Source of the DNA: Thiolapillus brandeum
GTDB lineage: Bacteria; Pseudomonadota; Gammaproteobacteria; Chromatiales; Chromatiaceae
Length of the DNA stretch: 64,000 bases
Direction of reading: 5' to 3'
Assembly (NCBI RefSeq): GCF_000828615.1
Contig: NZ_AP012273.1
Location: forward strand, 1-64,000
Shown here: one piece after another, positions 46,767 through 48,693 of the stretch
Numbering within the stretch: position 1 is the first letter of the stretch
How the letters are laid out: every line of letters starts with the position of its first letter
Notes under the pieces: generated by a model
What the model saw: the letters and a program-made list of their open reading frames with translations, nothing else
The model's database searches: none
What the model was told of the DNA's origin: nothing
Program-made: the position numbers and the translations under genes

Positions 46767-47600
46767 ATGAAACAATACCTGGAACTGCTACAGCGGGTGC
46801 GTACTGAAGGTGCGCCCAAGGGAGACCGTACGGGCACCGGCACCTATTCCGTGTTCGGACACCAGATGCGCTTCGATCTGAACCAGGGGTTTCCGCTGGT
46901 CACCACCAAGAAGATTCATCTCAAGTCCGTGATTCACGAGCTTCTGTGGTTCCTCAGGGGAGATACCAATACGGCTTATCTGCGCGACAACGGAGTGACC
47001 ATTTGGGACGAATGGGCAGATAAAAACGGTGAACTTGGGCCTATCTACGGATATCAGTGGCGATCCTGGCCGACTCCCGATGGTTCGCACATCGACCAGA
47101 TCGAGCAGATTATCGCCCAGATACGCACCACCCCGAATTCCCGGCGCATCATCGTTTCGGCCTGGAATCCGGCCGATCTGCCGGACGAAAGCATCTCGCC
47201 CCAGGACAATGTCGCTCAGGGCAGGATGGCCCTTGCCCCCTGTCACGCCTTCTTTCAGTTCTATGTCCGGGATGGCCGCTTGTCCTGCCAGCTTTACCAG
47301 CGCAGTGCCGACGTATTTCTGGGCGTACCCTTCAATATCGCCAGCTATGCCTTGCTCACCATGATGCTGGCCCAGGTCTGCGGCCTTCAGGCGGGGGATT
47401 TCATTCATACCCTGGGGGATGCCCACTTGTACAGTAATCACCTGGAGCAGGCGGACCTGCAATTGTCCCGGGAGCCATTTTCTCTGCCATCCATGAGCTT
47501 GGATCCAGAGATACAAAAGCTCGATGATTTTGTCTTTGACAGCTTTGAGATCCAAAACTATCACAGCCACCCGGGAATTCGTGCTCCTATTGCCGTTTAA
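46767..47600 (+). CDS. thyA: Thymidylate synthase
   Basis: ThyA makes dTMP from dUMP with methylene-tetrahydrofolate, generating dihydrofolate. The 277-residue protein (slightly longer than the 264 of E. coli) has the folate/dUMP-binding [20 protein letters not shown] start, the catalytic Cys in [12 protein letters not shown] near 159, and [20 protein letters not shown]. Its partner dihydrofolate reductase is encoded 417 bp further on, with a small FNR-controlled gene between them. Confidence 0.98.
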
Positions 47601-47735: not shown

Positions 47736-47777
47736 TTGATAAATATCAATACGCCCCCATATGATTATTAGTATATT
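47736..47777 (+). promoter_or_regulatory. Class II FNR/Anr-type promoter
   Basis: TTGATAAATATCAA (47736-47749) is a perfect FNR/Anr box (TTGAT-N4-ATCAA). A -10 element TATATT lies at 47772-47777, so a start near 47784 would place the box at -41.5, the standard class II activation position. No -35 is needed. It points at the 44-residue gene starting at 47819. Confidence 0.8.
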
Positions 47778-47818
47778 AGATTCATCTTAAATACTAATGC
47801 AACTGTATGGAGGTTGCC

Positions 47819-47953
47819 ATGTCTGAAGAAGTACTGAAACTCGATTGCGCTGAATGGCGTGAAGTAGCCGGAGAGAATCCGTCTGAAATGGAAGTGGTCA
47901 TTGAAATGATGATCGAAGCCGAAGAAGATCTTTGTGTGGACCAGGCCGCCTGA
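47819..47953 (+). CDS. 44-residue acidic microprotein under FNR control
   Basis: This short frame encodes 44 residues beginning MSEEVLKLDCAEWREVAG and ending CVDQAA, very rich in Glu and with two cysteines (residues 10 and 39). GGAGG lies 5 nt before the ATG, a strong ribosome-binding site. A class II FNR promoter lies upstream and an intrinsic terminator 24 bp downstream, so the gene has its own complete transcription unit. No family is recognised. It is too acidic and hydrophilic for a membrane peptide; a small regulator or metal-binding adaptor is possible. Confidence 0.75.
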   Translation: MSEEVLKLDCAEWREVAGENPSEMEVVIEMMIEAEEDLCVDQAA

Positions 47954-47977
47954 GCCCGCTTCATATGAAACTCCCTG

Positions 47978-48005
47978 GAAACCCGCCCCTGGCGGGTTTC
48001 TTTTT
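47978..48005 (+). terminator. Intrinsic terminator after the microprotein gene
   Basis: GAAACCCGCC, loop CCT, GGCGGGTTTC: a perfect 10-bp stem followed by TTTTT. It ends 12 bp before the first possible folA start, so folA must use readthrough or a promoter within this short space. Confidence 0.9.
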
Positions 48006-48016
48006 GCCCGGTCATA

Positions 48017-48523
48017 ATGTCTGGTATGGACAAGCCCTTCATCAGCATCATCAGTGCCATGGCACATAACCGGGTTATCGGCCACGAAAACCGGCTGCCT
48101 TGGCATTTGCCCGCGGATTTACAGCATTTCAAGGCGGTGACCATGGGGAAGCCCATGATCATGGGGCGCAAGACCTGGGAATCCCTGCCGGGCCTGCTGC
48201 CTGGCAGGCCACATATCGTGGTGACACGCAACCCGGATTACCGCGCTGAAGGGGCGAGGGTGGTGCATTCCCTGGAAGAGAGCTTCGATGCCGCCGGGGA
48301 TGTGGAGGAAATCATGATCGTGGGTGGCGCGAACCTTTATGCGCAAGCTCTGTCCCATGCCCGGCGCATGTACCTGACACAGATCGATACACAGGTGGAA
48401 GGCGACGCCTGGTTTCCGGCATTCAATGCCCGTGAATGGCGAGAGGTCGCGCTGGAAAAATATGTGGCAGACGAAAAGAATCCCTTTGACTATCGGTTCA
48501 TTACACTGGAGAAGCAGCCATGA
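48017..48523 (+). CDS. folA: Dihydrofolate reductase
   Basis: FolA reduces dihydrofolate made by ThyA back to tetrahydrofolate. The 168-residue protein (165 if read from the second ATG at 48026) has the family features SIISAMAHNRVIGHENRLPWHLPADLQHF-type opening (first 15 residues after the start shown here only in part), MIMGRKTWESLP and the NADPH loop IMIVGGANLYAQAL. The upstream terminator leaves little room for a ribosome-binding site. Its stop overlaps the arfA-like start as ATGA. Confidence 0.96.
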   Translation: MSGMDKPFISIISAMAHNRVIGHENRLPWHLPADLQHFKAVTMGKPMIMGRKTWESLPGLLPGRPHIVVTRNPDYRAEGARVVHSLEESFDAAGDVEEIMIVGGANLYAQALSHARRMYLTQIDTQVEGDAWFPAFNAREWREVALEKYVADEKNPFDYRFITLEKQP

Positions 48524-48693
48524 AGAAAGGCAAGGCCAAAAGACTGGTGATGCAGCGGCAATACCGCAGCCGGGTGGTGAAAGACAAAACCAAATATCAC
48601 CGCAAAACCAGACATAAAAAAGCCCCTGGATTCAGGGGCTTTTTTATGTCTGGCCATCTCACCATGCAGTATCAGCTTCCTTCGGGCGGATAA
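48520..48693 (+). CDS. arfA: ArfA-like alternative ribosome-rescue factor with in-frame terminator
   Basis: The frame encodes 57 residues. Residues 9-34 (LVMQRQYRSRVVKDKTKYHR then KTRHKK) match the ArfA core pattern of R..RV..K....Y.RK...H, which fills the empty mRNA channel of stalled ribosomes and recruits RF2. A terminator hairpin lies within the frame, so transcripts would end at about codon 41-42 without a stop codon. ArfA in known cases is made from such non-stop messages and is destroyed when tmRNA works. ATG overlaps the folA stop. The sequence match is short, so the family call is probable rather than certain. Confidence 0.75.
   Translation: MKKGKAKRLVMQRQYRSRVVKDKTKYHRKTRHKKAPGFRGFFMSGHLTMQYQLPSGG
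48608..48653. terminator. 21-bp perfect hairpin with T-run inside the arfA-like frame
   Basis: CCAGACATAAAAAAGCCCCTG, 4-nt loop, then its exact complement. The GCCCCTG/CAGGGGC core followed by TTTTTT is a strong terminator for the plus strand, and the A-run makes it work for the minus-strand gene too. The full stem is long enough for RNase III. Confidence 0.9.

Follow-up and report, generated by a model that had tools for sequence, protein, structure and literature searches.

A candidate Crp/Fnr-box-regulated microprotein gene beside folA in Thiolapillus brandeum and related gammaproteobacteria

Between thyA and folA in the genome of Thiolapillus brandeum lies a short acidic frame, which raises the questions of whether it is a protein gene with a promoter of its own and which signal that promoter would answer. 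The stretch of DNA analysed (the window) is 64 kb long. Thiolapillus brandeum is described as a facultative anaerobe in which sulfur oxidation is coupled to either nitrate or oxygen; its genome carries nap, nirS, nor, and nosZ (PMC4136832). The sequence-only reading had taken the frame and its flanking signals for a self-contained, FNR-controlled unit, and comparison with relatives supports that reading, with frame, promoter, and terminator all conserved in the genus. The unit is most probably (about 0.8) a stand-alone, protein-coding gene regulated through a Crp/Fnr-type box.

Layout and coding status of the unit

The unit and its two neighbours consist of the following features:

46767..47600, + strand, thyA, thymidylate synthase (Pfam PF00303), upstream neighbour
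47736..47749, + strand, FNR/DNR-type box TTGATAAATATCAA, from direct reading and pattern search
47772..47777, + strand, putative -10 element TATATT inside the conserved AGTATATTAG, 22 bp past the box (class II spacing)
47809..47813, + strand, Shine-Dalgarno sequence GGAGG, 5 nt 5' of the ATG, also in genus relatives
47819..47953, + strand, 44-aa acidic microprotein MSEEVLKLDCAEWREVAGENPSEMEVVIEMMIEAEEDLCVDQAA, ATG at 47819, stop at 47951-47953
47977..48005, + strand, intrinsic terminator hairpin with T run, arms 47977-47987 and 47991-48001
48017..48523, + strand, folA, dihydrofolate reductase (Pfam PF00186), downstream neighbour

Direct reading and pattern search confirmed every element that had been proposed, namely, the perfect box, the -10 element, GGAGG, the 44-codon frame, and the hairpin. 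The box is the sole perfect TTGATNNNNATCAA site found by pattern search within the 64-kb window, in which eight sites with at most one mismatch occurred, compared with 2.2 expected. Further upstream than thyA lies lgt (Pfam). A generic promoter scan picked TTGATA/TATGAT, a sigma70-like pair overlapping the box, and not TATATT; in the ten genus members compared, TATGAT varies, and TATATTAG is conserved except for one TACATTAG. Transcription would start at about position 47784, which would place the centre of the box near -41.5. Translation from an alternative ATG at 47807 would lengthen the protein by four residues; this codon is missing in the more distant genus members, and for this reason the start was set at 47819. 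The predicted product contains 11 Glu, 3 Asp, and 2 Cys. The terminator hairpin (-18.8 kcal/mol, z -2.5) was missed by a generic terminator scan and picked up by a separate scan for hairpins with a T run.

The 44-codon frame is a real protein gene under strong purifying selection. The pooled pN/pS of ten genus members over 39 codons was 0.083, and L112, L113, L114, and L117 each have 10 to 13 synonymous changes and 1 nonsynonymous change relative to the window. Homologues were found in 61 of 194 genomes of the same family (E <= 1, weak matches counted). In the order, the 21-row profile A1 (E <= 0.01) matched 64 of 210 genomes, and one match (G033), which sits within a 1255-codon frame, was dropped; the search of related genomes that the sequence-only reading had called for thus returned a relative of the peptide in 63 of 210. 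In the class sample, matches were limited to 3 of 369 (the genome itself, one of its own family, and G730 of another family), and in the phylum sample they were limited to 2 of 398 (the genome itself and one weak match containing internal stops). A scan of named genomes yielded 38 loci, including those of Sedimenticola MAGs, Ca. Thiodiazotropha, tubeworm endosymbionts, and the Solemya velum symbiont, and tblastn searches of plasmids and phages gave no microprotein match. Extra copies of the gene (L021:1765-1881, L019, and L171-L173) were seen in two genomes. In G036, two copies stand in tandem in the interval from thyA to folA, and the small genome G041 has four matches, one of them partial, of which L172 lies between thyA and folA.

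The earlier statement that the product matches nothing known holds in these searches, in which no hit reached a Pfam or NCBIfam cut-off and no match to a solved structure was significant. Titles and the beginnings of abstracts in the literature on the microprotein, DUF3135, and FNR-controlled small proteins contained no description of it. The best explanation is that the microprotein family is undescribed and is borne by sulfur-oxidising, mostly denitrifying gammaproteobacteria. A guess made from a single sequence has thereby become a family, a small acidic protein of cultured Thiolapillus and of lucinid-clam and tubeworm symbionts, and both the transcript and the peptide are directly testable in a cultured strain.

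Promoter box and candidate regulators

Conservation of the box was examined in 56 loci, one per genome, taken from G730 and from 55 of the order's 63 gene-bearing genomes (G068, G099, G111, G120, G138, G152, G593, and G597 were left out). The interval from -135 to -40 of the start codon was scanned for TTGAY-N4-RTCAA, and the counts were compared with those of 300 shuffles. A perfect box was found in 17 of the 56 loci (shuffle mean, 0.02), and the count rose to 26 when up to one mismatch was allowed (0.76) and to 35 when up to two were allowed (7.5). The ten loci of the genus of Thiolapillus brandeum (g1) have eight perfect boxes, one with one mismatch, and one with two; the only g7 locus has a perfect box, the seven g41 loci have three perfect and four one-mismatch boxes, and the eight g42 loci have five perfect, two one-mismatch, and one two-mismatch boxes. 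Beyond these genera, boxes within one mismatch of the pattern were present at 1 of 11 loci in g8 and 1 of 5 in g2 and at none in g12, g15, g21, g26, g30, g36, g39, g43, g55, and f212. The expectation of a conserved box in relatives was therefore borne out in g1, g7, g41, and g42, but the box is mostly absent from the other lineages. In the lineages mostly without a box, a TTGAC-like -35 ahead of TATATTAG is frequent by eye, and the promoters of g8, g21, g36, and others look sigma70-like. With boxes of this quality at only 26 of the 56 loci and sigma70-like promoters in those genera, anaerobic control is inessential to the family.

Among the ten genus members, mean conservation was 0.86 in the box arms, 0.58 in the spacer, and 0.57 in the 39 upstream bases, and it reached 0.99 over the ten columns of the extended -10. 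The box and the -10 are separated by 22 bp in g7 and in nine of the ten g1 loci and by 21 bp in the tenth, whose box is the weakest. The gap is 40 to 44 bp in g42, where one -10 is weak, and 39 to 41 bp, with weak -10 matches, in five of the seven g41 loci, one of which (L023) has a better -10 match as well, at 26 bp; the other two have no clear -10. These gaps resemble the class II position in g1 and g7 and, roughly, the class I position in g42 and less clearly in g41, class II and class I being names for these activator positions. Judged by the -10 spacing from a predicted start, the box would lie near -41.5 or -61.5 in g1, g7, and g42. Depending on the lineage, one orthologous gene would have a box-dependent promoter of either spacing or a promoter without a box, and its promoter would tie the family to the anoxic or denitrifying state in four genera.

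Both a palindromic TTGAY-N4-RTCAA site and a cognate regulator in the genome, as expected of a Crp/Fnr-activated promoter, were found. A true FNR is encoded (NF008365, 279 bits against a cut-off of 228), with an ACKNC...LC cluster, and 11 of 14 Crp-type HTH matches are above their cut-off. Two adjacent FNR-like genes were observed at about 1814000-1815400 of G000:C1, only one of which has the full cysteine cluster; the cysteines of its neighbour are arranged differently. The genome contains 22 box sites, compared with 5 for a reversed control pattern; 14 of the other sites were examined with their surroundings, and seven were recorded by coordinate only. Boxes precede nosZ (L100), napF (L109), and a TIGR01212 radical SAM gene (L108), and the L110 box lies ahead of a norC-like gene and, divergently, of a Crp/Fnr gene; the label norC-like was given by reading, the cytochrome c matches in NCBIfam being below cut-off only. 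Two further sites, at 2920143 and 2920325, precede a cytochrome d1 match (2920792) by about 640 and 450 bp, respectively. The boxes of L103, L104, and L105 fall within frames, and those of L098, L099, and L101 fall in frames read as transposase-like. The palindrome TTGATGATGATCAA or its complement was observed at G000:C1:633853, 636230, 810902, and 814880, in or near transposase-like frames, and because of this recurrence the tally of perfect boxes in the genome includes repeat copies. The microprotein unit shares its palindrome, within the same genome, with denitrification-regulon promoters (napF, nirS, norC, and nosZ; FNR/ANR/DNR), with its own box at class II spacing. Unlike those promoters, its box would serve a single 44-codon orphan gene and not a respiratory operon.

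Cytochrome d1 (PF02239, E <= 1e-20) was screened in 194 genomes. The gene and d1 occur together in 42, the gene only in 9, d1 only in 55, and neither in 88 (Fisher p 8e-8, among genomes that are related; at the genus level, 13/2/22/24, p 0.014). In g1, all seven gene-bearing genomes screened have d1. Neither the gene nor d1 is present in G029 and G106, the two screened members of a g1 clade that lacks the whole unit (see below), and the lone gene-less genomes of g41 and g42 are also without d1. A strict link is contradicted by g8, in which d1 is found in six of the seven genomes without the gene, by G072, G116, and G185, gene-less members of gene-bearing genera that likewise have d1, and by the 9 of 51 gene-bearing genomes that have no d1, including g7 with its perfect box.

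On the reading favoured here, falling oxygen or the appearance of NO would lead an activator of the Crp/Fnr family, FNR or of DNR type, to bind the box. The bound activator would recruit RNA polymerase from the class II position, and a short mRNA for the 44-residue protein would be made, ending at its own terminator. The unit is putatively oxygen-responsive, but the signal could instead be NO because, besides the true FNR, other Crp/Fnr proteins are encoded, one of them beside the norC-like gene, and FNR and DNR sites are alike. An NO sensor of DNR type might act here in place of FNR, in which case the gene would answer denitrification intermediates and not oxygen itself; this is a serious possibility, somewhat short of even. 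The norC-like gene that bears the same box adjoins a gene for a Crp/Fnr protein that lacks the cysteine cluster of FNR and was labelled DNR-like by reading (nothing in NCBIfam exceeded the cut-offs), and the co-occurrence with cytochrome d1 points in the same direction. PMC5398030 gives an activator site at 41.5 and the site consensus, which is TTGAT-N4-ATCAA for Anr/Dnr and FNR alike. However, the presence of a true FNR argues against a DNR-type regulator, as does the perfect box kept in four gene-bearing genomes without d1 (G006, G042, G129, and G145).

Predicted fold and possible relatives of the product

The AlphaFold2 model from 35 rows places helices at residues 10 to 19 and 21 to 40 (mean pLDDT 81.5, pTM 0.53), and the single-sequence model has a pLDDT of 66.7. 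The product is predicted to fold as a hairpin of two helices, small, acidic, and soluble, and reading of its sequence revealed neither a membrane segment nor a catalytic motif of a known kind. Both cysteines are invariant across profiles A1 and A2 and absent from the divergent g42 copies, and a metal site or disulfide formed by the cysteine pair was rejected as a general mechanism because the g42 members have neither cysteine. These g42 copies (L155, L157-L160, and L164-L166) lie beside folA with a box of at most two mismatches, and thyA is on the other side from folA in seven of eight.

Searches of the PDB by sequence gave a best E of 1.2, and searches by fold (E <= 10) gave none for the 35-row model and one at E 9.1 for the single-sequence model. 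In PHROGs the best E was 0.15. The window protein is below every cut-off in Pfam and NCBIfam, and the best Pfam E among 21 members was 0.0018, which belongs to a weak hmmscan similarity to Cdd1 (PF11731; 18.9 bits against a cut-off of 25.5), matched by 1 of 21 members. SWIRM-assoc_2 (PF16496) showed a weak similarity to the window protein (E 0.024, below the curated cut-off) and was matched by 4 of 21 members.

A further likeness is to DUF3135 (PF11333), whose N-terminal hairpin motif is similar without gaps. The DUF3135 model spans 81 positions and includes a conserved C-terminal half, whereas the microprotein ends after the N-terminal hairpin; it might tentatively be regarded as a truncated, stand-alone relative of that hairpin which shares the role of the family. 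The spacing of W, A, P, and E at the DUF3135 N terminus aligns ungapped, and local hhalign gave a probability of 80 (P 1.3e-5) with a score of 27.1, which none of 200 column permutations reached (maximum, 15.1). No score reaches the curated cut-off; the family is not listed in the scan of the window protein and is matched weakly by 4 of 21 members (best E 0.016). Against this kinship, the global hhalign probability is 20, a box with at most one mismatch accompanies only 2 of 30 DUF3135 genes (0.65 in shuffles), and DUF3135 was found in 0 of 12 genomes of the same genus. DUF3135 was also chosen among 24,736 Pfam families, for which the significance corrects, by our own arithmetic, to about 0.3, and because it was picked from all of Pfam the kinship stays a lead. 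As to how the product of the favoured unit acts, our guess, held with well under even confidence, is that it binds some partner protein while the cell respires nitrate.

Position and loss of the locus

The placement between thyA and folA applies to 25 of the 56 loci but not to the other 31; seven adjoin folA only, one adjoins thyA only, and 23 adjoin neither within the piece examined. Nine loci away from thyA-folA share no neighbourhood, their neighbours being unrelated. In g1, the constant neighbour of the gene is folA and not thyA, since folA is downstream in all ten loci and an upstream thyA match is missing in five. The longer g1 pieces L034, L035, L038, and L042 have no thyA among their listed upstream frames. 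By reading, a glmS-like frame was observed upstream of the gene in L038 and a permease-like frame in L035 and L042.

In three g1 genomes (G029, G106, and G603), thyA is directly followed by folA, the whole unit is missing, and a profile search (E <= 0.01) revealed no microprotein copy elsewhere. The sequence-only reading had named, as evidence that would count against the unit, close relatives from which both the frame and its sites are gone. Such loss does occur here, but it is read as derived; these genomes form one clade in the folA tree (support 100/100), whose placement inside the genus depends on unstarred forks and a midpoint root. Because the gene occupies the same place in other genera, the simplest reading is a single, block-wise loss. 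G185 (no folA match) and G606 (folA starts at the contig end) are uninformative for loss. In 40 folA-upstream regions, one of them 417 bases long, mostly from gene-less genomes and three from genomes with the gene elsewhere, thyA adjoins folA in 10, with gaps of 0 to 96 bp, and a profile search for hidden copies in all 40 gave a best E of 0.74, with none real.

This arrangement might suggest that the microprotein is an effector induced by anoxia or NO that binds dihydrofolate reductase, ThyA, or a complex of the two and adjusts dTMP synthesis on the switch to nitrate respiration. Such a role would explain the 25 loci between thyA and folA, the seven with folA only, and the block-wise absence in one clade; it is an unlikely reading, in which the link to ThyA and dihydrofolate reductase is drawn from gene position.

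The unit could also serve chiefly as an anaerobic promoter for folA by read-through, with the peptide secondary. A T-run terminator lies downstream in 30 of the 56 loci (1.0 in shuffles), including 10 of 10 in g1 and 11 of 11 in g8 but 0 of 7 in g41 and 0 of 8 in g42; its absence from the last two genera and the presence of folA beside the gene in 32 of the 56 loci are compatible with read-through. The explanation is nevertheless improbable, as the terminator separates the gene from folA in all ten genus members, the peptide is under strong purifying selection, and the frame is kept at the 23 loci without thyA or folA in the piece examined. A regulatory RNA in which the open frame is fortuitous would fit the compact unit and its short predicted, terminated transcript but is scarcely credible, given that the pN/pS value rejects a noncoding RNA, the Shine-Dalgarno sequence recurs in genus relatives, protein similarity extends across genera, and no Rfam match was found in the window.

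Downstream of folA, a basic 57-aa frame (window positions 48520-48693) overlaps the folA stop and is matched in several genus members. It has a subthreshold match to DUF7230 (E 2e-4) and contains a perfect 21-bp hairpin (z -9.1); a hairpin within such a short basic frame is reminiscent of the ribosome-rescue factor ArfA.
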